From Parcubacteria group bacterium Gr01-1014_38 (GTDB taxonomy: Bacteria; Patescibacteriota; Andersenbacteria; UBA10190; CAIZMI01), in contig VMFP01000005.1 of NCBI GenBank assembly GCA_007376145.1, positions 1-52,087 on the forward strand: a DNA stretch of 52,087 bases. The letters are read 5' to 3'. Positions 2,896 through 21,230 of the stretch are shown here, piece by piece. A program made the translations under genes and the position numbers. The notes under the pieces are model-generated. The model was not told where the DNA came from, searched no databases, and saw nothing but the letters and a program-made list of their open reading frames with translations. Each line of letters begins with the position of its first letter. Within the stretch, counting starts at the first letter, position 1.

Positions 2896-3823
2896 GGAGT
2901 CCCGCCTGCGGACCGATTTTCTGGATGACGGAGCCGGCGTTCGCCGCCCCCCAGCGGAGCGCATCGGCGATGTCTGTGCCGTAGGAGAGTGCCGCGAGGA
3001 ATCCGGTGCTGTAGGCATCCCCCGCTCCTGTCCGTTCGACCGCGGGCAGCGGGTACGGCGGCATGGACCACGCGTCGCCATCGCGGAGTGCGTAGGAACC
3101 AGCGGGGCCATCGGTGATGACCACCGTTGCGGGCCCAAGCGCGTGCAACCCCGAGAGCAAAGTTCGAGGCGTCACGGAGGGCGAGCGTTTTAAGATCGTT
3201 GCCGCTTCCTCCCGATTGACGAGGAGAACGTCGGTGCGTTTCAGGAGCGACAAAAGCGCTGACGGTTTACCCCGCAACTGGTGGGTTCCGGGGTTAAAGG
3301 CAAGGGACGCACCGGATGTTTGTAGGTACCGGAGGAGCGGTGGAACAATCCGCTCCCACCCTTTCCCCATGCTGGTGAGGTAGACGCGGAAGGAGGGCGC
3401 GAGCACCGGCAGGCGGTAGGTCCGCGGCTCGTGATAGATGAGGATGGTTCGCTCCCCTTGGAAGCTTAAGACGGTGGAGTAATTCGTGCCGCGGCGGCGA
3501 TCGAAGATGACGTACGGCATGGCCACGCCGTTCTTCCGGAGTTCGGCGGCAATTCCGCGCCCGGCCTCATCGCTCCCGAGCGTGGTGACCATGGCGACCG
3601 AGAGTCCCAAGCGCGCAGAACCCACTGCGTTGTTCGCCGCGTTCCCCGCCGCCGGGACGCGCGTGACGGCCTCGACGGGAATCTTGTCCGCGTACCGGAA
3701 GCAGAGGAGACACGCCCGCCGGTTCAGCGTGCAATGGACCGTCGCATCGTGGAGCTTCAAGAACACATCCACCGTCGCATCGCCGATGGAAACGAGGTCG
3801 TACGGCACGCGGCGTTTCTGCAT
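2828..3823 (-). CDS. PfkB-family carbohydrate (ribokinase-like) kinase
   Basis: A 331-residue ribokinase-fold sugar or nucleoside kinase. The glycine/asparagine-rich substrate loop AAGNAANNAVGSARLG is at 58-73, NREEA at 203-207, and the catalytic/ATP site RTGAGDAYSTG at 264-274 with the catalytic base Asp269. Substrate cannot be read from sequence. A stretch around 30-45 with three cysteines (CTLNRRACLLC) is unusual for the family. It is monocistronic, facing the DHH-like gene and overlapping it by 68 bases at the 3' ends, and is divergent from pilB with about 125 bases between the starts. Confidence 0.88.
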   Translation of the reverse strand: MQKRRVPYDLVSIGDATVDVFLKLHDATVHCTLNRRACLLCFRYADKIPVEAVTRVPAAGNAANNAVGSARLGLSVAMVTTLGSDEAGRGIAAELRKNGVAMPYVIFDRRRGTNYSTVLSFQGERTILIYHEPRTYRLPVLAPSFRVYLTSMGKGWERIVPPLLRYLQTSGASLAFNPGTHQLRGKPSALLSLLKRTDVLLVNREEAATILKRSPSVTPRTLLSGLHALGPATVVITDGPAGSYALRDGDAWSMPPYPLPAVERTGAGDAYSTGFLAALSYGTDIADALRWGAANAGSVIQKIGPQAGLLTRSGIQGLLRRYPRLVPKPLP

Positions 3824-3947
3824 GGGCGTTTTGGTTCAGCGTATCCTGGATGACCGGCGCGCGTACAGCCGTGCGGGCCAACCGGCGCGCAGGGAAACTC
3901 CCCACGCGGACATCCGACGCAGTACACTACGCAAAGGAGAACACCGC

Positions 3948-5690
3948 ATGGCCAACACCAATATCCCCCCGCCGCCGGAGACACCGCCCCGCCCCCCCCG
4001 CAGCGGGGTCTCCCGGGAGACGGAGAAGGAACTCCGGCGGGAGGAGCGCGCCCTTGAGCCGACCTTAAAGAAGCTCGAGCGAACCGAGGAAGAGCGCTTT
4101 GCGGCTGATCGCGCGGCGCGCCTCGGACTCCCGTACATCAACCTTCTCGGATTTCCCATCAACACCGACGCCTTACGCCTGGTGCCCGAGGAACGCGCCC
4201 GAGCGGTGAAGGCCATCGTGTTCTGGAAGCAGGGAAAAGAAGTGCGCCTTGGCGCCGTTGATCCGACGTCGCGCGCCGTCCGAGATCTGGAGAACGAACT
4301 CGTGGACCAAGAAGGTTTTCACGTCCGTCGATACCTCTGCTCGCCGCGCTCTCTCGATCTCGCACTCTCGATGTACGTCAAAGTGGCGCGAGAAGGCGCG
4401 AAGCGCGATCGGTACCTTGCCCTTCCCACCGAGGAGCTTACCATTTTCGAGCGGGAAATCCGGAACTTGAAGGAGCTTGGGCAGCGCATCGTGGAGCTCC
4501 CCACCACCGAAGTCCTCGACACGATCGTTGCAGGCGCGGTCAAGCTCGAGGCGTCGGACATTCACATCGAGCCGAAAGAGGGCTATGCCCGCCTCCGGTA
4601 CCGCATTGACGGCGTGCTGCAGGACATTACGAACTTTTCTCTCGCCGGCTACACCCAGCTTCTCTCTCGCGTGAAAGTCCTCTCCGGCCTCAAGCTGAAC
4701 GTCCACGATCTCCCGCAAGACGGCTCCTTTGTCCTGCAGACCGCGCAGACCACCATTGACGTCCGCACGAGCATCATCCCTGGGGATCCAGGAGAGAACA
4801 TCGTCCTCCGACTCCTCGATCGGAACATGGCGGTGAAGCGCATCGAGGACCTCGGGATGAAGGACCGCGATCGTGACCTCATCCTGAAGGAGCTGAAGAA
4901 ACCGGACGGGATGATCTTGAATACCGGCCCGACGGGGTCCGGGAAAACGACAACGCTCGCAACGTTCCTCCAGCTCATCAATAAGCCCGAGCTAAAAATC
5001 ATTACGCTCGAAGATCCTATCGAATACCGCATCCCCGGCGTCGAGCAGACGCAGGTGGACGAGGAGAGCGGCTACACGTTCTCCAGGGGGTTACGGAGCA
5101 TCCTCCGGCAAGATCCGGACATCATCCTCGTCGGCGAGATCCGCGATACGGACACGGCGGAAACGGCGATGCACGCGGCGCTCACCGGCCACCTTGTCCT
5201 CACCACGCTTCACACGAACGATGCGGTGGGTGCCATTCCTCGTCTCGTGGACATGGGGGTGCGTCCGTACATCATCGCGCCTGCCGTGAACGCGATTATC
5301 GCGCAGCGCTTGGTGCGGAAGGTTTGCCCGCACTGCGCGGAGGAATATCCGGCAACGTCCGAAGAACGCGCGCTCATTCGGGAAGCGCTTAGCGGGGCGG
5401 CAAAAGACGTCTTCGATCCGAAGGTGCTCGACAATCCAAAACTGACCCTGGTCCGCGCGAAAGGCTGCCCCAAGTGCAACGAGACCGGCTACCGCGGCCG
5501 CATCGGCGTCTTCGAGATCTTCGCCGTGAAAGGGGAGATCGAAAAGCTGGCGACGGAAGGCGCCGACACCATGGCGCTCAAGGAGGCCGCTCACAAGCAG
5601 GGCATGACCACCGTCACGCAGGACGCGATGCTCAAAGTCCTCGAGAAGATCACCACCCTCGAAGAAGCGGAACGGGTCGGGGAGGTGTAG
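3948..5690 (+). CDS. pilB: PilB/GspE-type pilus assembly ATPase
   Basis: A 580-residue GspE/PilB secretion ATPase that powers type IV pilus extension at the inner face of the membrane. A proline-rich start (8-18) and charged helix precede an N-terminal MshEN-like domain (about 50-160). The ATPase core has Walker A GPTGSGKT (327-334), Asp-box residues around 355-377 and Walker B ILVGEIRD (393-400). A four-cysteine zinc motif is formed by CPHC (460-463) and CPKC (507-510). The start is ATG 3948 with AAAGGAGA seven bases upstream; the frame is open further upstream but antisense to the kinase. No pilC, pilT or pilin gene is adjacent. Confidence 0.93.
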   Translation: MANTNIPPPPETPPRPPRSGVSRETEKELRREERALEPTLKKLERTEEERFAADRAARLGLPYINLLGFPINTDALRLVPEERARAVKAIVFWKQGKEVRLGAVDPTSRAVRDLENELVDQEGFHVRRYLCSPRSLDLALSMYVKVAREGAKRDRYLALPTEELTIFEREIRNLKELGQRIVELPTTEVLDTIVAGAVKLEASDIHIEPKEGYARLRYRIDGVLQDITNFSLAGYTQLLSRVKVLSGLKLNVHDLPQDGSFVLQTAQTTIDVRTSIIPGDPGENIVLRLLDRNMAVKRIEDLGMKDRDRDLILKELKKPDGMILNTGPTGSGKTTTLATFLQLINKPELKIITLEDPIEYRIPGVEQTQVDEESGYTFSRGLRSILRQDPDIILVGEIRDTDTAETAMHAALTGHLVLTTLHTNDAVGAIPRLVDMGVRPYIIAPAVNAIIAQRLVRKVCPHCAEEYPATSEERALIREALSGAAKDVFDPKVLDNPKLTLVRAKGCPKCNETGYRGRIGVFEIFAVKGEIEKLATEGADTMALKEAAHKQGMTTVTQDAMLKVLEKITTLEEAERVGEV

Positions 5691-5789: not shown

Positions 5790-6344
5790 ATGAACTCATC
5801 TTCTTCGATAGAAATCTTGTCTGCCTTCGTGGACACGGCGGAAAGAAACCGAAATTACCCCTCGAACACCGCGGCGGGACTACGTTCGGCCCTACGACTG
5901 TTTGAGCGTGAATTGAACGGGACCGAGCGTGCCTCTGTGGAGCAATTGTCGAAGAACCTAGACAAAATCTACAGGCAGGTCGTGAGTCGAAATCAGCAGA
6001 AAATGACCGCGGCGAGCATGGAAACCTATCGCCGTCGTATAAAAAACCTCCTGAGCGATTACGAAAACTATGGCGTGGATCCGACGAGGATAGCGGAGTG
6101 GAATCGCCCAACTCGAAAAGTTCTCGCACGAGAGCCTGGATCGGTAATATCCAACCCTTCTACGGACAGTTCCGCTGCACCCACATCGGTTCCCAACAAC
6201 GAAACACCTGCAACCAGTCGTCTGGAGATAGTATTGCGTCCCGATGCGAGAGCTATTCTGGTGTTGCCGGCGAATTTGACAAAAGAGGATGCTGCAGCAA
6301 TTAAAGCACTCGTGGACGCCAGTGTGCGCTCAGCCCATTTATAA
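5790..6344 (+). CDS. hypothetical protein, integrase SAM-like N-terminus
   Basis: A 184-residue protein I cannot name. The first 100 residues are helical and resemble the N-terminal DNA-binding (SAM-like) domain of tyrosine recombinases, including ETYRRRIKNLLSDYENYGVD, but no catalytic domain follows. A Ser/Pro/Thr-rich linker (about 118-145) leads to a short C-terminal segment with LVLPANLTKEDAAAIKALVD. Base use differs from the neighbours: 30 of 60 bases are G/C at 6001-6060. The ATG has no clear ribosome site. Probably an accessory DNA-binding protein; function is not established. Confidence 0.6.
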   Translation: MNSSSSIEILSAFVDTAERNRNYPSNTAAGLRSALRLFERELNGTERASVEQLSKNLDKIYRQVVSRNQQKMTAASMETYRRRIKNLLSDYENYGVDPTRIAEWNRPTRKVLAREPGSVISNPSTDSSAAPTSVPNNETPATSRLEIVLRPDARAILVLPANLTKEDAAAIKALVDASVRSAHL

Positions 6345-6656: not shown

Positions 6657-6708
6657 GTTAATCCTATGAGTGTGCTCGAAACCCATAAACCTTCCAGCCT
6701 CCGTGCTC

Positions 6709-6762
6709 GCCACCCGCTGTATCGAGAGGAGAAGTGGGTTCCACAATCTTCTCACGTGGGCT
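6709..6762 (+). repeat. 54-bp direct repeat, left copy flanking the DUF4331 cassette
   Basis: This segment matches 10681-10734 at 45 of 54 positions without gaps, in the same orientation. Conserved blocks are ATCGAGAG, GGGTTCCACA and GTGGGCT. The two copies bracket exactly the three-gene DUF4331-TPR-HupE unit. Coding potential differs in the two copies, so shared protein sequence does not explain the match. Confidence 0.75.
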
Positions 6763-6780
6763 ACCAAGCCACAGAACGAA

Positions 6781-6807
6781 AAAGTCCCGGCTTCACGTCG
6801 GGGCTTT
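6781..6807. terminator. bidirectional intrinsic terminator
   Basis: AAAGTCCCGGC (6781-6791) pairs with GTCGGGGCTTT (6797-6807), eleven pairs including G-T pairs around a TTCAC loop. CTTTCTT follows on the plus strand and the minus strand runs into TTTTTC. It sits 74 bases past the hupE-like stop and probably ends that minus-strand operon. Confidence 0.75.
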
Positions 6808-6880
6808 CTTCGTTGCGCGGCATGGCCGCGCGAAGGGAAAGGGAGTCGAAGAGTCTCCATCCTTGAGCAAAGAGCTTTCG

Positions 6881-7717
6881 TCACGCAACCATCCGCTGAA
6901 TGCCCCAGGCAAGACCCAGACCTCCGAGGACAACGCCTGCCAGTTTGAGAAATGCCTGGTACCAGGTGGATGTCCGAGCTGACCAGAGCACGGACAAGGC
7001 GAGCGAGACGACGAGGAGCTGTCCGAGCTCGATGCCGACGTTGAAGGAGAAAAGTGAAGAGAGAAACTTATCCTGCGGAAGTTGGATTTCCTTGAGGATA
7101 CCTGCAAAGCCAAGGCCGTGGAAGAACCCGAAGACAAATACTGTGACGATGTGCGAGAGAGTGCTCCGAAACCACCGGACATGATGAAGGAACGTGCTCG
7201 TGAGCGCGACGTACGCAATGGAGAATGCGATGAAGGGCTCGACGATGCGGGAAGAGAGCGTGAGGAGTCCCGCGCCCGCAAGAAGGAGTGAGAGACTGTG
7301 TGCAATCGTGAACGTACTCGTAAGCCGGAGGATGCGGCGGAGTGATGCTGGTACGAGAAGGAGCGAGAGGACAAAGAGAACATGGTCGAGACCGCCGAGA
7401 ATGTGGCGGACGCCGAGTTTCCCAAAGTCCATGCTGTTGTCGAGGAGGGTAGTCTGCTGGTGTGCCAGGCGGACGACATCTTCCGCGTTCCGGATCCTCT
7501 TCGCGAGGTCAGGAGCCGTATGGGCTCCCAGGATTTTCCGGAGATCTTCCGGGGACGCGGTGGGGTTGGCTCTGAGGAACTCTTGGACTTGTATGGGGAG
7601 GAGTTCGTGAGCGAATGCTGGGTGAGCGAATAACAGAACAGTGAGAACGACGGACACGCGAAGCGAGAGCGTGCTCCGGCCCTCGCCCTGCTCGAGCCTC
7701 ACCCGGTCACAGGTCAT
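6881..7717 (-). CDS. HupE/UreJ-2-like membrane protein
   Basis: A 278-residue membrane protein of the HupE/UreJ type, a family linked to nickel or cobalt handling though often uncharacterised. A signal peptide is followed by AHELLP (36-41). A soluble segment follows (about 42-95), then roughly six membrane helices. The family signature HxxxGxDH is present at 105-112 (HILGGLDH) and a second histidine group FGFFHGLGFAG lies in a later helix. Its ATG overlaps the stop of the TPR gene (ATGA, 7714-7717), so the two are translationally coupled. No hydrogenase, urease or other nickel enzyme is visible in the window. Confidence 0.8.
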   Translation of the reverse strand: MTCDRVRLEQGEGRSTLSLRVSVVLTVLLFAHPAFAHELLPIQVQEFLRANPTASPEDLRKILGAHTAPDLAKRIRNAEDVVRLAHQQTTLLDNSMDFGKLGVRHILGGLDHVLFVLSLLLVPASLRRILRLTSTFTIAHSLSLLLAGAGLLTLSSRIVEPFIAFSIAYVALTSTFLHHVRWFRSTLSHIVTVFVFGFFHGLGFAGILKEIQLPQDKFLSSLFSFNVGIELGQLLVVSLALSVLWSARTSTWYQAFLKLAGVVLGGLGLAWGIQRMVA

Positions 7718-8997
7718 GGGGGCATCAAACGGAGTCTCTCCTCCACCACGGGGTCATACAAAATGGCGATGTGTTTCGCCAGCTGGCGTGTCCGCTCGAA
7801 GAGCCAGCGTGCTTCGGCGCGGTTCCCGGTTGCCTCTGCGATCACGGCTGCGTGGAACACAATGAGTGGGTCGTGTTCACCGAGACGGAGAGCTTCCTTG
7901 ATCACATGCGCAGCGCGCTCGTGTTGCCCGTCTTTGTACAGCGCCCACGCAAGCACATCAGCGGCCTGGATACTCGGCCGGTCGCGGTGCGCGGCTTCGG
8001 CTTTCTGCAGTGCGGTGCCAAGATCCCGATCGTGATCCGCGAGAAAGAAGGCAATCTCGAGATCCGTGTTCACGCCGCTCGCCTGCGATTTCTCAAAGGC
8101 GAGCTGCGCGAGAGTGTAGTAGGTCTCGGCCCGTTCCTTCTCCCCGAGGCGCACGTACGTGTCACCGAGGTCAATCGCGTGCTGCGCAACGGGCAGACGT
8201 GCAAGCGCTCGCTCGAACCATGGGAGCGCGCCGCGAAGATCGCCCTGCGCGACGGCAACACGACCGCGTCCTTCAAGCGCAGGTGGATGGTCAGGAACCA
8301 CGGCGAGAGCCCGCTCGTATGCACGAGCTGCGGCATCGGGATCGCGGCGCAGAGCCAGATTTCCGAGCAGGACGTAGCTCCACGCAAGGTTCTCTGGGTA
8401 CAGAGACCCCGCGCTGATCGCATCGCGGATCGCCTCCTCTGCGCCTTCGAGATCGCCATGGAGCTCGCGCGCATAGGCGATGCGGTGGTAGGCGCTCAAG
8501 TTCGGCCGGAGGTCAACCATCCGCTGGAACGCTTCGACCGCCTCGATGTACTGGCCGAGTTCCAGGGCGGCATCGCCAAGCAGACCGTAATGGGCAGCGG
8601 CGTGCTGGTTGCGCTGAATGGCCTCCTCGGCAAGTCGCTTCGCTTCACGGAACTGGTGACGGCCGAAGGCAATGGCGGATCGGGTCGCAATGATGTCAGC
8701 ACGACCGGGCGCGAGTTGTTCGGCGTCGTTGAGAACTTCTTCGACACGAGCATAGAGCGCGACATCCGCTGTCTCTCGTACCTTCTGGAGAAGGACCTGC
8801 GCGAGCTCAAGGCGGAGCTCCACATTCTTCGGTGAACGGCGGATCCGAGATTCGAGCGTTTGAATGCGTTGCTCGGTGGATGCGATACCCGTCGGGGTGG
8901 ACGATGCGCGCGGCGATGGTCGAAAGATCGTCGTGACGACGACGGCACTCCCGAGCAGCAATCCGAGGGATAGGAGAACGTGCCAGAGGTTCCGCAC
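7714..8997 (-). CDS. membrane-anchored TPR-repeat protein
   Basis: A 427-residue protein with an N-terminal membrane segment (about 6-25) and a long array of tetratricopeptide-like repeats, for example residues from about 130 on with AAAHYGLLGDAALELGQYIE and repeated A-x-G-x-x-x-x-A patterns. It probably forms a periplasmic or extracytoplasmic scaffold. It lies between the DUF4331 gene (84-base gap) and the hupE-like gene (ATGA overlap), so it is likely the bridging member of a three-gene unit. No catalytic domain is visible. Confidence 0.85.
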   Translation of the reverse strand: MRNLWHVLLSLGLLLGSAVVVTTIFRPSPRASSTPTGIASTEQRIQTLESRIRRSPKNVELRLELAQVLLQKVRETADVALYARVEEVLNDAEQLAPGRADIIATRSAIAFGRHQFREAKRLAEEAIQRNQHAAAHYGLLGDAALELGQYIEAVEAFQRMVDLRPNLSAYHRIAYARELHGDLEGAEEAIRDAISAGSLYPENLAWSYVLLGNLALRRDPDAAARAYERALAVVPDHPPALEGRGRVAVAQGDLRGALPWFERALARLPVAQHAIDLGDTYVRLGEKERAETYYTLAQLAFEKSQASGVNTDLEIAFFLADHDRDLGTALQKAEAAHRDRPSIQAADVLAWALYKDGQHERAAHVIKEALRLGEHDPLIVFHAAVIAEATGNRAEARWLFERTRQLAKHIAILYDPVVEERLRLMPP

Positions 8998-9081
8998 GGC
9001 ATGTACACTGAAGAACCCGCGTGCGGTTGTCCACCGCGTGTGCTCTGCGACGCGCCAGTTGTCGGTGCGCGGGAGATCCTG

Positions 9082-10467
9082 CTACGGCGCCGGACAGTGG
9101 GGAACGCTATCGAAGCCGCTCCCCGGAAGGGCGAGGTACGGGAATGTGCTCAGGAAGGCTTTATCATTCTCATCCACACCGTCCCCAAGACGATTCGCCA
9201 ACGGATCGGGTATAAACCCTGGGTGGAAGAGTGCATAGACAGCACCGGCAACAGCGCGGAGCGAGATGTCAGTCACATCGTCTGCCAGACGGCGTCCATT
9301 CGGATAGCCCTGAGTGTCTCCGCCGAGGACGCCGAACCGATTCGGCGTTTCGGTCGGTGGAATCGCAGTGTTCAGACGGAGCATTTCCGCGGCGCGTTGG
9401 TTTCCCTGGTCCGTCAGCCCGGGAATTCCTGTGAGGAAAACCGCCATGAGATCGTCGCGTTCATCACCGCTGCCCACATCGCCCTGCGGTGGGACCGCGA
9501 TCCCGTAGAGAGCGTTGAGGAGTGTTCCGAGTTCCGGATTCGCCACGAAATTCGCAAACTGTCCGTCATCACGTGGTGCCGATGCATTCCAGCGATCCTT
9601 CCCCTCGAGCGGAATGACAACTTCGTTCACGAGCGGCGACCCGAGGCGCGATACCTGAACCCACGGACCGTCGTGCTCCTGCGAACCATCGGTGCGCAGG
9701 ACGCGCTGTGAAGGACGAGAGGAGGTCGTCCAGACACCGATGGTCGGGTGCTGATCATCCGCCAGCAGCTGTTCAATCGGAACCTGAAGCGCAAGCGTGA
9801 GCACGCCATATCCGGCGAGACCGTCGACACCGCCACCTTCGTCCCCCGGCGGGTTCCGAATCGTGAGGAGATCAAACGCGCCGCCAAGGTCAACGAAGAA
9901 GGGATCATCTCGTTGCCCAGCAAAGACCTTGATGTCATCCGCGACTGTATGGATGGCCGCTTCCTGAAGGGCGGGATAGTTCGGCGTAGTCTGCGGACCA
10001 ACGTGGGACGGTGGCGTGACGAGACCCCTGCCGAGCTCAGTGTCCCCCCGGGTGAGGGTGTAAGTCTGCGGCGTGTTCCAGTCGGGGTCATCGGGGGCAT
10101 CAATGGGCCCCGTGGCGTAGAGGAAGGTGTTCGGATTCCGAAGGAGGTCCTGGAAACGGAACTGATACGAGATGTCTTCGTGCGCGTCTCCATCGTTATC
10201 CACCTTGATTTCGTAGAGGACGTTTGGATCGAAGGAATAGAAATTGGGCCCACCCGCTGGTTCCTGGAAGGGAAGGTAGTTCGCAATGAGGGTGACGGTC
10301 TCCGGGTTGTCCGGGCTCACGAAGGCGAAGAGATCGGTGGCGTCTGCCTTTGGGTCTCCACTAATGAGCGGGGCTTCCCGGTGGCTTGAGGCACGCACCG
10401 GAGCCTGGGTGGTTGTGAAAACCACGGCGAGAAGCAACAGAATGACGCCAAGCGTTCGCCAGTTCAT
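9082..10467 (-). CDS. secreted DUF4331-family protein
   Basis: A 461-residue exported protein with a clear signal peptide (hydrophobic 7-24) and the DUF4331 hallmark right after it: SSHREAPLISGDPKADATDL. Later family blocks include NYLPFQEPAGGPNFYSFDPN and a C-terminal GYPNGRRLADDVTD. DUF4331 proteins are secreted, of unknown activity, and common in free-living bacteria. It is the first gene of the DUF4331-TPR-HupE unit. A surface or metal-related role is only inference from the linked gene. The family is unexpected in a reduced Patescibacteria-like genome. Confidence 0.9.
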   Translation of the reverse strand: MNWRTLGVILLLLAVVFTTTQAPVRASSHREAPLISGDPKADATDLFAFVSPDNPETVTLIANYLPFQEPAGGPNFYSFDPNVLYEIKVDNDGDAHEDISYQFRFQDLLRNPNTFLYATGPIDAPDDPDWNTPQTYTLTRGDTELGRGLVTPPSHVGPQTTPNYPALQEAAIHTVADDIKVFAGQRDDPFFVDLGGAFDLLTIRNPPGDEGGGVDGLAGYGVLTLALQVPIEQLLADDQHPTIGVWTTSSRPSQRVLRTDGSQEHDGPWVQVSRLGSPLVNEVVIPLEGKDRWNASAPRDDGQFANFVANPELGTLLNALYGIAVPPQGDVGSGDERDDLMAVFLTGIPGLTDQGNQRAAEMLRLNTAIPPTETPNRFGVLGGDTQGYPNGRRLADDVTDISLRAVAGAVYALFHPGFIPDPLANRLGDGVDENDKAFLSTFPYLALPGSGFDSVPHCPAP

Positions 10468-10743
10468 TGGTCATCCACAGTCTACCGCACGACCAACCGC
10501 GCTGCCACCTGCTGTCAAGGGCCACTGATGGAGTCACAGGACACGGAGGACCCATCGTGTAGCTTTTGGGGAGACACCCCCCCCTGTGCCTCCCCCTATG
10601 GGTTCCAAACCAGTCACGAGATCAGGTAGCGTGTGTGACGCTAGCCGGTGTCAGATCTTTCAACGACTCCGTCCACGCTTGCCACACGCAGAATCGAGAG
10701 AAGAAGAGGGTTCCACATTTTTGTCAGGTGGGCTGTCGATTGC
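10468..10743. other. intergenic region upstream of the DUF4331 gene
   Basis: The 276 bases hold no supported gene. A GGGGAG/CTCCCC hairpin around a run of C (10568-10595), a small TAGCGT/ACGCTA hairpin (10627-10643) and the right copy of the direct repeat (10681-10734) are visible. The DUF4331 promoter should lie here on the minus strand but I could not fix it. Confidence 0.5.
10681..10734 (+). repeat. 54-bp direct repeat, right copy flanking the DUF4331 cassette
   Basis: Right partner of 6709-6762 (45 of 54 identical, same orientation). It lies about 210 bases upstream of the DUF4331 start and ten bases from the stop of the next minus-strand gene. Confidence 0.75.
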
Positions 10744-12903
10744 TCACGTTCGCCGCGCCAGGAGGCGAAGGATCCCGAGGACGCCGGCGGAGCCCCAGGC
10801 GACGTACGTGGGGACGGGAAGATGCGGGGTAAGCGGTTTTCGCTCCGAGCGAGGAGACGATGCGCGGAGTGAAGGCGGACCCGCCTCTCGCGTGTTTGCC
10901 CGGTTTGCCGCGGTACGGCCGCGCGGGGCGCTCGCGCGATCGGTGCTCCCCGAACGAGCTGCAGCAGACTGTGAGGAAACTTTTCCCGCGCCCACTGTGC
11001 CGGAGCGCGCCGCCGCGGACGCTGCCACTCGTCCAGCAAGCTGCAGGTCACTTTCGAACCGCGGGAGGATGCGGTATGTCGCGCCCGACTGGGAGGCAAG
11101 GCCGACCACCGCGAGCTCCTGCCCCTTGGAAAGTTGGGGTCGTTTCCAGCCCGTGGTCTCCCGGATGAGAATGCGCAGTGGTCCCGACCCGTCATCGAGG
11201 GTGAACGTGTTCCCGGAGAGCTTCGTCACCGTTCCGCGGACGCTCACGAGCGTTCCTTCGAGAGCCTCGCCGACGGCACCGGTCTTCGCTTCGACGGAAG
11301 CCGGCACGGCCCCCGATCCCGTCTTGCGAACCCCGGCGGCATCGGCGCGGACCCGCGCTTCATTCCTGATGCTGCTCGTCACGCCGTCAACCGTCACGCG
11401 GTCGCCGAGCGACAGGGGCGGCGGATCGCCTTTGCTGACAAAGACCTGGAGTCCCGACCCCGACTCCGCAAGGTAGAAGACCCCGCGACCGAGCAGGTTG
11501 GGCGGGGCGGTCACCACTCCGGAGACCTGCACGCGCGCCCCGCGCGCGAGCGAGCGGACCTCCGCGAGCGACACGAAGCGCCCGGCAGAGGGAGAGGCGC
11601 TGGGCGACGGCGATGGCGTACCGCTGGCTCCTTCGTCGTCCTCCTGCCCCCGCGCCGGTAGCGGCGTGAAGACGTTCGCGGCTCCGGGGGTCGGCGTTGC
11701 CGTCCACTCTGCGGACCCATCACTCTTCCGCGCCCAGGCCGCCCCCTCGCGGGGAACGTCCCCATAGATGAGGGAGTGCACCACGGTACCATCCGAAGCA
11801 AGGAGACGCGCAGAATCCCCATTGTTGTTCAGCGCGAGGCGGGTTTCGCTCCGCGGGAACGAGCGGTACTCCCTCCCTTGGAGAACCGTGCCTGCCGTGA
11901 GAGTGTAGGGAGTGCTGCCGCCTTCCGCGTCGTCGAGTTTGGCCCCGCTGAGATCAACGGATTCCGCCGCCGTGTTGAAGAGTTCAATGAATTCGCCGGC
12001 GGCATCGCTGCCGACCGGATCCGGGAGCGTCTCGTTGACGACGACACTCGTCGGAAGGGGACGGGTGCGGACGAGAACCGCGTGTGTCGCCTCCGCTTCG
12101 GCGCTTCCGTCGCTTGCCGTCGCGGTAATGGTGAACGAACCGGCGCGTCCGTAGGTGTGCGTGACGGACGTTCCTTGGGCTCTCCCGCCATCGCCGAAGT
12201 CCCAGGAGACCGTCACGCGATCCCCGTCGGGATCGGTCACCGTGGCTGAAAATGCTCCGCGCTCGCCTTCAAACAGCGAGGTGGGACCGGTCACCGCGAT
12301 GCTCGGCGGGCGATTCCCGGGGCTGTTCGGAGTCCGCGGCGTCCCATGGCGGCCGCCGAGAGCGCCGGTGGACGTATGCCAGCTCCTCGCCTCCACGCCG
12401 CTCCCCGGCGGATCCTTCCGCTCCATCGAGATGCCGCCTCCCGTAGTTCTCCCCGCGAACCACCCGCCGGAGGGTTGGTTGGCCTGATCGACGATGGTGT
12501 TCTCCGCGTCGAGGAGCCGGAGGAGCTCGCCGGTGTTCAGAAGCGCGAGCGCGGAGATAACTTTGTCTGCGGGAATCGTTGTCGCGTCCTCGTTTCGTTC
12601 AATAAGATAGAAATCTCCGGCGCCAATCGTATCGCCTTCCCCAAACGTGAAGATGCGCGTCGGTTCCTGCTCCCCTCGCTGGCGCTGGAGCTCCCAGCCC
12701 GCGAGGGAGATCTCCGCATCGCTCGTGTTCCGGAGTTCGAGGTACTCGACCCCGCCCCACATGATCTCATTGATGACGACGCTGGGTTCCTCCTGGGCAT
12801 GGGCGGAGAACCAGAGAGTGAGGAAACTGATCCCGATGAGGAGGCTGATGACAAGCCGAGACGCCGCTGCGCCCTGGGTCGCGTGGGAAGATCTGCCTGG
12901 CAT
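10744..12903 (-). CDS. surface protein: lamin-tail, PKD, lamin-tail, OB-fold, C-terminal anchor
   Basis: A 719-residue exported protein. A signal peptide ends near AHAQ (about 33-36). A first lamin-tail-like domain begins VVINEIMWGGVEYLELRN. A PKD-type Ig domain follows (WDFGDGGRAQGTSVTHTYG). A second lamin-tail-like domain begins VVVNETLPDPVGSDAAGEFIE. After a Ser/Pro linker comes an OB-fold-like region (RVQVSGVVTAPPNLLGRGVF ... RILIRETT). The C-terminus has a short hydrophobic segment and RR tail that may anchor it. No nuclease catalytic domain is present, although LTD/OB combinations often accompany extracellular nucleases. The start is the ATG at 12901-12903; the open frame further upstream is antisense-like. 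Confidence 0.8.
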   Translation of the reverse strand: MPGRSSHATQGAAASRLVISLLIGISFLTLWFSAHAQEEPSVVINEIMWGGVEYLELRNTSDAEISLAGWELQRQRGEQEPTRIFTFGEGDTIGAGDFYLIERNEDATTIPADKVISALALLNTGELLRLLDAENTIVDQANQPSGGWFAGRTTGGGISMERKDPPGSGVEARSWHTSTGALGGRHGTPRTPNSPGNRPPSIAVTGPTSLFEGERGAFSATVTDPDGDRVTVSWDFGDGGRAQGTSVTHTYGRAGSFTITATASDGSAEAEATHAVLVRTRPLPTSVVVNETLPDPVGSDAAGEFIELFNTAAESVDLSGAKLDDAEGGSTPYTLTAGTVLQGREYRSFPRSETRLALNNNGDSARLLASDGTVVHSLIYGDVPREGAAWARKSDGSAEWTATPTPGAANVFTPLPARGQEDDEGASGTPSPSPSASPSAGRFVSLAEVRSLARGARVQVSGVVTAPPNLLGRGVFYLAESGSGLQVFVSKGDPPPLSLGDRVTVDGVTSSIRNEARVRADAAGVRKTGSGAVPASVEAKTGAVGEALEGTLVSVRGTVTKLSGNTFTLDDGSGPLRILIRETTGWKRPQLSKGQELAVVGLASQSGATYRILPRFESDLQLAGRVAASAAARSGTVGAGKVSSQSAAARSGSTDRASAPRGRTAANRANTREAGPPSLRASSPRSERKPLTPHLPVPTYVAWGSAGVLGILRLLARRT

Positions 12904-12911
12904 CGCCGCTC

Positions 12912-13502
12912 TCACACAACCGAAGACAGAGAGATCTGAGCGCCTGCCCGGCGGAGCGCTTCCTCGTGCGCCAGAATCACGATCTTCTTCACCGCATCTG
13001 GATGTGGAACCTGCTCGAAGACGAAACGCTCTCGCTCTCCCGCGGTCTGGACGAAGACCTGCCCGTAGTCCAAGAAGGTGGGGAACAATCCTTTCACTTC
13101 GCTCGTCGCGTCCTGGACGCGGAGGAGACGCTGCTCGGAGATCACCCGGTTGAACAAGCCCACCTGCTCGATGTTGACGATACGCTCGTCCGTGACGATC
13201 CAGAGGTCGAGGTAGTAGTCCACCCACGCGTAGGCGAAGAAGAGCCAGAGAAAGAGGTAGTAGAGAGAGAGCGCGACCGACAGGAGAACCTCCCAGACGG
13301 TTCCCTCGAGACTCTGGGAGAGGCCCGCGGGGACCAGGAACCGAAGGAAGATGGGGAGGAGCGTGAACCGAACGAAGGCGGCCGCAACGAGAATGAAGAC
13401 AAACGGATGGCGTCGGAGAACAAGGAGCACGCGCTCCCCGCGGTGCTGGCCTTGGAAGTGCATGCTCCGGAACTCACTCGGCGGAGGGAACGCGTGCGGC
13501 AT
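12912..13502 (-). CDS. PH-domain (bPH2-like) membrane protein
   Basis: A 196-residue protein with two hydrophobic segments (about 35-57 and 68-95) followed by a bacterial PH-like domain beginning DLWIVTDERIVNIEQVGLFN, with the RVQDATSEVKGLFPTFLDYG block typical of this group. The domain probably faces the cytoplasm. An internal Met at residue 14 (13461-13463) could be the true start. It sits between the small membrane protein and the lamin-tail surface protein in a ruvB-led minus-strand unit. Function unknown. Confidence 0.8.
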   Translation of the reverse strand: MPHAFPPPSEFRSMHFQGQHRGERVLLVLRRHPFVFILVAAAFVRFTLLPIFLRFLVPAGLSQSLEGTVWEVLLSVALSLYYLFLWLFFAYAWVDYYLDLWIVTDERIVNIEQVGLFNRVISEQRLLRVQDATSEVKGLFPTFLDYGQVFVQTAGERERFVFEQVPHPDAVKKIVILAHEEALRRAGAQISLSSVV

Positions 13503-20030: not shown

Positions 20031-21230
20031 CTATCCCACACGCACAAACTTGCGCTTGCCGACTTGTAGAAGGTCACCACTATCAAGAGTAAGTATATTT
20101 TCTTTCCCAATCAGGGCGGGTCGAATGTCGTGACCGTTAAGACGCACTCCACCAAACTCAACTAACCGTCTAGACTCGCTTTTAGATGTTGCGAGCCCTG
20201 CTTTAACAAGAAGTTCGGCAACATCTTCCCATGTACCGGCAAGCTGTTTTTCTGGAATGTCGCTGGGAAGTCCCTTCTGGTGAAAGACGCGGAGCCACTC
20301 GTCCGCGGCGCGCTTTGCTGCCTCTGCTCCGTGGTACAGCCTTACAACGCCTTGAGCTACCTCAAGTTTAATATCGCGTGGGTTTTCTTTTCCCAGACGG
20401 CGTGAAAGCTCTTTCACCTTCTCCTCTGGCCAGCCAGCAGCAAGACGCGCGTAGTCAAGAATTGCTGTATCTGGAACGGTCATGAGCTTGCCAATCATGC
20501 TCTTCGGAGATTCGGTAATTCCCACAAAGTTGCCCTCGCTTTTGCTCATTTTTTTCTTCCCGTCGATACCAACAAGCATTGAGGTACCTAGAAGATCCTG
20601 AGGATCTTGCTTAAAATGCGGCTGGAGATCCCGTCCAAAATTAAGATTAATGAGCTGCTCCTTACCGGCCACCTCAATGTCAGCTCTTACTTTAACCGAG
20701 TCGTACGCTTGAAGTACGGGGTAGAGAAGCTCGTAGAGCCAGACCGGCTCTTTTTTCTCCTGGCGCTCCTTAAATAATCCCCGCTCTAGAATTTGGGATA
20801 ACGTAAACTTCGAGAGCAGCAGAAGCGTCTCCTGAAAGGTGATCTGATCAATCCATTCGCTGTTCTTCCTAACCTCAATCTTGTGCACATCAAGAATTTC
20901 TCCAACTTGATCCAAGTATGTCTGCATATGCTTACGTATTTCCCCTTTGCTCAACGCGGTTCGAACTTTCGAAAGACCTGTAGGATCACCAATTCGCGCC
21001 GTTGCATCGCCGATAATAAAAACAATTTTATGTCCAAGCTGCTGAAATTCCAGAAGTTTTCTAAGGACAACTGCGTGCCCCAAATGAAGATCTGGAGCAG
21101 TTGGATCAACACCAAACTTTATACGAAGCTTCTCGCCTCGCCGTAGACGATCTTGGAGATGGTCCCGATCTATGACCTTATCAACGTTGTGCGAAAGGAG
21201 ATGATCAATACGCTCGTTTGTAGTCTCCAT
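20031..21230 (-). CDS. tyrS: tyrosyl-tRNA synthetase
   Basis: A 399-residue class I tyrosyl-tRNA synthetase. The HIGH-type motif is HLGH (49-52) and the KMSKS loop is KKKMSKS (225-231). The tyrosine pocket region YPVLQAYD is present, and a C-terminal S4 domain begins around 335 (LLVKAGLATSKSESRRLVEFGGVRLNG). It looks complete. Its base use differs from the neighbours: 27 of 60 bases are G/C at 20521-20580 and 32 of 60 at 20941-21000, against 40 of 60 in the adjacent PBP gene at 22021-22080. This suggests acquisition from a lower-G+C donor. Confidence 0.96.
   Translation of the reverse strand: METTNERIDHLLSHNVDKVIDRDHLQDRLRRGEKLRIKFGVDPTAPDLHLGHAVVLRKLLEFQQLGHKIVFIIGDATARIGDPTGLSKVRTALSKGEIRKHMQTYLDQVGEILDVHKIEVRKNSEWIDQITFQETLLLLSKFTLSQILERGLFKERQEKKEPVWLYELLYPVLQAYDSVKVRADIEVAGKEQLINLNFGRDLQPHFKQDPQDLLGTSMLVGIDGKKKMSKSEGNFVGITESPKSMIGKLMTVPDTAILDYARLAAGWPEEKVKELSRRLGKENPRDIKLEVAQGVVRLYHGAEAAKRAADEWLRVFHQKGLPSDIPEKQLAGTWEDVAELLVKAGLATSKSESRRLVEFGGVRLNGHDIRPALIGKENILTLDSGDLLQVGKRKFVRVG

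Follow-up and report, generated by a model that had tools for sequence, protein, structure and literature searches.

The window, that is the whole stretch of 52,087 nucleotides that was analysed, carries three adjacent genes on the minus strand that encode a DUF4331 protein, a TPR protein and a membrane protein of the HupE_UreJ_2 family, and these are the three genes lying between two direct repeats (Table 1). The match of the DUF4331 protein to PF14224 is full-length (497 bits for a cut-off of 27, positions 1-421 of 421), and the PF13795 domain of HupE scores 144.9 bits for a cut-off of 24.5. Together with the Pfam match of the TPR protein and the ATGA at 7717-7714 (minus strand), which is common to the TPR stop and the HupE start, these matches confirm the layout of three genes with an ATGA overlap described in an earlier note on this DNA. 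The DUF4331 protein begins with a signal peptide, directly followed by the mature start SSHREAP, while the TPR protein has a single N-terminal hydrophobic anchor. The hairpin that follows HupE consists of an 8-bp stem with G-T pairs, a loop of 5 nt and a TTTTT run; a terminator pattern scan returned only a plus strand version at 6789-6805. On the left side, the LTD/PKD gene has orthologues across the order, which stand between RuvB and GspE, and on the right side the true start of the GspE/PilB-type gene is probably further in than 3486.

Table 1. Coordinates of the cassette genes, the direct repeats and the flanking features in the window.
Feature	Position	Strand	Description
Lamin-tail (LTD)/PKD surface protein gene, left flank	10744-13227	-	PF00932, PF18911
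Direct repeat copy c2	10672-10734	-	begins 9 nt past the LTD/PKD gene stop
DUF4331 gene	9082-10467	-	461 aa; PF14224, E=5.8e-149
TPR protein gene	7714-8997	-	427 aa; TPR repeats, E=4e-24 (Pfam)
HupE_UreJ_2 membrane protein gene	6881-7717	-	278 aa; PF13795, E=2.1e-42
Terminator-like hairpin and T-run after HupE	6779-6804	-	read from the sequence
Direct repeat copy c1	6700-6762	-	118 nt past the HupE stop, beyond the terminator-like hairpin
Orphan gene	5790-6344	+	184 aa; same lineage-specific interval, outside the repeats
GspE/PilB-type ATPase gene, right flank	3486-5690	+	PF00437

The two repeat copies, c1 and c2, extend over 63 nt in direct orientation and are 81% identical, with 12 mismatches. 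A shorter repeat of 54 bp matching at 45 of 54 positions had been reported before, and this count was exact, nine of the 12 mismatches falling within those 54 bp. When the two intergenic regions were aligned locally, the score was 67, to be compared with a mean of 18.6, a standard deviation of 2.3 and a maximum of 30 for the dinucleotide-shuffle null (n=1000). The 25-bp core of the repeat, searched with up to 3 mismatches, was present only in c1 and c2 in the source genome (1.03 Mb, 95% complete) and in 0 of 96 relatives. Across this genome and its relatives, close copies stand only at the edges of the cassette, and not at the many unrelated places that would have spoken against the earlier proposal of entry or duplication as a unit; with two close copies in the genome, an abundant dispersed repeat was ruled out. 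Other identities of the repeat were rejected as well. Rfam and ARAGORN detected no tRNA, tmRNA or Rfam match in the repeats, and a sub-threshold match to the ylbH leader was judged to be due to chance. An integron attC site was ruled out by folding, c1 and c2 having no symmetric structure in common. The copies share a reading frame (WNPLLLSI.RVAS), but with 5 of the 12 mismatches (by eye) third positions are not favoured, which argues against a protein-coding remnant. The repeat had no match in viral contigs.

We then considered how the cassette is distributed in the lineage. DUF4331 was found in one of the 380 sampled genomes of the phylum, namely the source genome, which agrees with the view that such a gene set is unexpected in a reduced genome. 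The DUF4331 protein used as query matched in 0 of the 96 relatives. Among 361 genomes of the phylum, HupE_UreJ_2 was strong only in the source genome (146 bits), the two other matches being marginal, one just above the cut-off (25.1 bits) and one below it. Within the order, RuvB, LTD and GspE form a conserved neighbourhood. In a member of the same family (G001), the GspE orthologue of which is 68.5% identical to that of the window, LTD and gspE are convergent, and their stops are 152 bp apart with nothing between them. The cassette is thus absent from this site and does not occupy a syntenic place throughout the lineage. No single repeat copy was readable at the empty site, where the intergenic DNA is too diverged. 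The LTD-gspE interval is filled differently in other relatives. In a second member of the family (G002:C2, L035 291-1580), two small genes for exported peptides come after the LTD gene, and the gap is therefore variable within the family.

The codon usage of the cassette genes is native (z -0.03 to 0.41), so that their entry was old or came from a similar donor. The orphan gene at 5790-6344 shows atypical codon usage (z -2.5), has weak matches to DUF327 and Phage_int_SAM_1, both below the cut-off, and was not found in the relatives except for a marginal match of 40 aa. It is a second and probably later arrival in the LTD-gspE gap, and the presence of this atypical, lineage-limited gene beside the cassette makes the whole gap a variable site. 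Neither phage records nor viral contigs contained a match to DUF4331, which ruled out a phage origin of the cassette; DUF4331 is present on plasmids of several phyla. From these sequence comparisons, the cassette looks foreign to its lineage and horizontally acquired, by an acquisition that appears to be old. The earlier note had suggested entry or duplication as a unit. Entry is supported by the lineage-unique cassette, the empty site of G001 and the restriction of the close repeats to the edges, while duplication is not supported, as the genome contains one cassette.

The origin of the repeats is less straightforward. A profile built on c1 and c2 recovered a third, diverged copy (G000:C23:39311-39366, L060 1501-1556; E=0.0017), and the repeat is therefore not strictly unique. 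Just outside the profile, 10 of 13 positions also match c1 (by eye), to about position 6775. This copy has a 119-aa orphan ORF on one side and, on the other, a LAGLIDADG endonuclease gene next to a tRNA-Asp. The repeats may thus belong to an old family dispersed through intergenic DNA, two members of which flank a foreign operon by chance; the operon would have entered a variable gap through ordinary recombination in which the repeats had no role. The location of the third copy far off on another contig, the 19% divergence between c1 and c2, the variability of the LTD-gspE gap in relatives and the position of the atypical orphan gene within this gap, beyond the repeats, are all consistent with such a family. 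However, within 1.03 Mb its two closest copies stand precisely at the cassette edges and in direct orientation, which would be rare for a random pair, and we regard this explanation as quite possible although short of probable. The divergence of the copies and the existence of the third one, as well as the lack of an integrase or transposase gene in the cassette, count against an insertion driven by the repeats.

To place the cassette among its relatives in other phyla, 25 DUF4331 loci outside the window were compared, with two incomplete loci set aside. They came from Chloroflexota, Acidobacteriota, Planctomycetota, Myxococcota, Actinomycetota, Bacteroidota, Cyanobacteriota and Pseudomonadota. 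A TPR gene was linked to DUF4331 in 21 of the 25 loci and a membrane transporter in 15, fractions that should not be read as unbiased frequencies because the loci were picked by similarity or collection content and some are near relatives. Twenty of the TPR genes were assigned by BLAST or Pfam, whereas for L082 the position and size of the gene were the only criteria, on the model of its near relative L049; the loci with no linked TPR gene were L025 and three loci linked to type II secretion. The transporter belonged to NicO (PF03824) in six loci (L024, L028, L045, L080 by BLAST, L084 and L086) and to HupE_UreJ_2 in nine (L032, L046, L047, L049, L051, L052, and, by BLAST or annotation, L031, L082 and L083). 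In Bacteroidota, TonB-dependent receptors flank the DUF4331-TPR pair. The conservation of the neighbours was thereby checked beyond the phylum, and the finding that a DUF4331-TPR-membrane protein operon recurs in many phyla upholds and extends the earlier view of the gene set as one envelope system whose function is unknown. A transporter is not an obligatory member, since it is missing from the three Rhodobacterales loci and from several further DUF4331-TPR pairs.

The gene types and their order in the Pseudomonadota operons (Marinobacter, Comamonadaceae, Pseudoalteromonas and Lichenicola) are identical to those of the window. Nevertheless, the HupE proteins of these operons carry an EF-hand-like N-terminal domain of about 180 aa that the window HupE does not have. 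In the DUF4331 tree, the window also falls outside the 100/100 clade formed by the HupE-type and type II secretion-linked operons, although a sister position to this clade was not rejected (p-AU 0.198). The closest TPR protein to that of the window among the loci belongs to a NicO-type operon of Chloroflexota (36%). Judged by these sequences, the window is best described as a variant, combining a shorter HupE with a DUF4331-TPR pair that stands apart from the usual HupE group. In Pseudoalteromonas (L049, L082), a gene pair for a sigma-70 family factor and an anti-sigma factor lies directly upstream of DUF4331, and a similar arrangement was noticed by eye in Sulfopaludibacter (L029).

Clues to function were sought in the proteins themselves. 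The window HupE retains the metal-ligand-type motifs, in the form of HILGGLDH, FTIAHS, HGLGFA and FNVGIE, and the patterns H-x3-G-x-D-H, T-x-A-H and HGxGFA were invariant in an alignment of seven sequences including it, in agreement with a motif scan. It shares these motifs and the Pfam family (HupE_UreJ_2) with the HupE/UreJ nickel permeases (PF04955, PF13795), for members of which nickel transport has been demonstrated (PMC2667541). It differs from them by its linkage to DUF4331 and TPR, with no hydrogenase or urease genes nearby. The earlier observation that genes for hydrogenase, urease or nickel use are lacking holds across the source genome for NiFe hydrogenase, and for hydrogenase and urease among the seven genes scanned at and beside the cassette, none of which encodes a linked metal enzyme; both absences weigh against a role in metal handling. 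The NicO proteins of the DUF4331-TPR operons of Chloroflexota, Acidobacteria, Actinomycetota and Nostoc occupy the same slot as the window HupE and have in common with it a mature N-terminus reading AH- (operon transporters, predicted by eye), but they belong to a different membrane family. An EF-hand-like loop of 12 residues, at an equivalent place in the exported N-terminal part near residues 52-83, was seen in 12 of the 13 operon transporters examined, the exception being the Acidobacterial one, and several NicO members bear a His-rich loop. The window HupE has neither, and the absence of the EF-hand-like N-terminal loop counts against a metal reading. Because NicO and HupE, two Ni/Co-type families, alternate in one operon slot, they would do the same job, and this exchange is the strongest functional hint that the sequences offer.

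As for the DUF4331 protein, of 19 listed homologues 18 have SSHREAP or NHREAP immediately behind their signal peptide and the remaining one is incomplete; a motif scan showed that a D-N-D-G-D-like loop is conserved in most homologues. Its AlphaFold model, with a mean pLDDT of 52.5, was poor and offered no meaningful fold match that could serve as a structural clue, and no sequence relative was detected in the PDB. Neither DUF4331 nor PF14224 is named in the 5.39 million open-access texts searched.

The explanation that we favour, with a confidence that is about evenly balanced, is that the cassette arrived horizontally and represents a variant of an envelope metal-handling operon that is widespread but undescribed, and that the repeats are recombination scars. 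A complete operon of three genes would have been taken up by horizontal transfer into the LTD/PKD-gspE gap, which in relatives is short or has other contents; the recipient, judged by the size and content of its genome, is probably a member of Patescibacteria. The 63-bp repeats would delimit the insert and were most likely left by the ancient recombination that brought it. The exported DUF4331 protein probably binds an ion, metal or calcium, outside the membrane at the cell surface; the membrane-anchored TPR protein may act as a scaffold holding DUF4331 or the transporter; and the HupE-family permease is predicted to move a divalent metal ion across the membrane, in or out. This explanation builds on the gene identities, the uniqueness in the lineage, the empty site, the confinement of the repeats to the edges bar one diverged copy, the recurrence of the module and the two Ni/Co-type families in one slot; the metal as substrate, the role of each protein and the repeats as scars are what we infer from them.

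DUF4331 is spread over many phyla, and the alternation of its partner between two nickel/cobalt-type families provides a first testable function. That a reduced genome gained and kept the operon with native codon usage suggests usefulness outside hydrogenase metabolism. The cassette is a cell-surface set missing from the sampled relatives, and the nickel/cobalt-type transporter often present in related sets of other phyla hints at metal-ion handling.

The function could be of another kind, DUF4331 being an exported adhesin, enzyme or matrix protein with no metal link, whose export or modification is served by TPR and HupE. In three Rhodobacterales plasmid loci (L048, L053, L081), DUF4331 adjoins a type II secretion cluster and an A24 prepilin peptidase and no transporter is linked, which suggests that DUF4331 is a secreted substrate there. 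A class F sortase joins the DUF4331 module in Streptomycetaceae, and phosphoesterases are found near DUF4331 in Marinobacter. These associations are what a protein of this kind would lead one to expect; however, the third slot is taken by two Ni/Co-type transporter families, both usually with EF-hand-like loops, and we hold a role with no metal to be rather unlikely.

As regards the mode of entry, the cassette might be a degenerate integrated element, the repeats representing attL and attR for a site-specific integrase that has since disappeared or acts in trans. Direct repeats of about 60 bp likewise bound the genes of integron cassettes and integrative elements, and the third copy lies near tRNA-Asp and the LAGLIDADG gene. 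Furthermore, a c1-like site, TGGTAGCCC-N13-GTGGAACTC, was detected in G008:C30 (L075 about 9690-9720), where a gene for a large serine recombinase (L075 257-1798) lies some 7.9 kb away. This loosely similar site is not significant alone (E=0.034), and its recovery with the site pattern is circular because the pattern was derived from it; together with other weak profile matches, it gives leads only for an attachment site. Unlike such elements, the cassette has repeats with no attC-like symmetry seen, in two copies plus one diverged. Moreover, the cassette contains no integrase, phage or plasmid gene, phage records and viral contigs yielded no DUF4331, and no tRNA-like match was found in the repeats, all of which makes an integrated element unlikely. 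The most far-reaching version, an undescribed metal-handling system of the envelope, spread across phyla and made up of exported DUF4331 and an interchangeable Ni/Co-type permease, of which a stripped variant was gained through a mobile element with the 63-bp repeats as attachment sites, appears improbable. Elsewhere in the window, which is mostly above 60% G+C, a low-G+C gene at 20031-21230 (GC3 0.46) lies in a stretch of 49% G+C.
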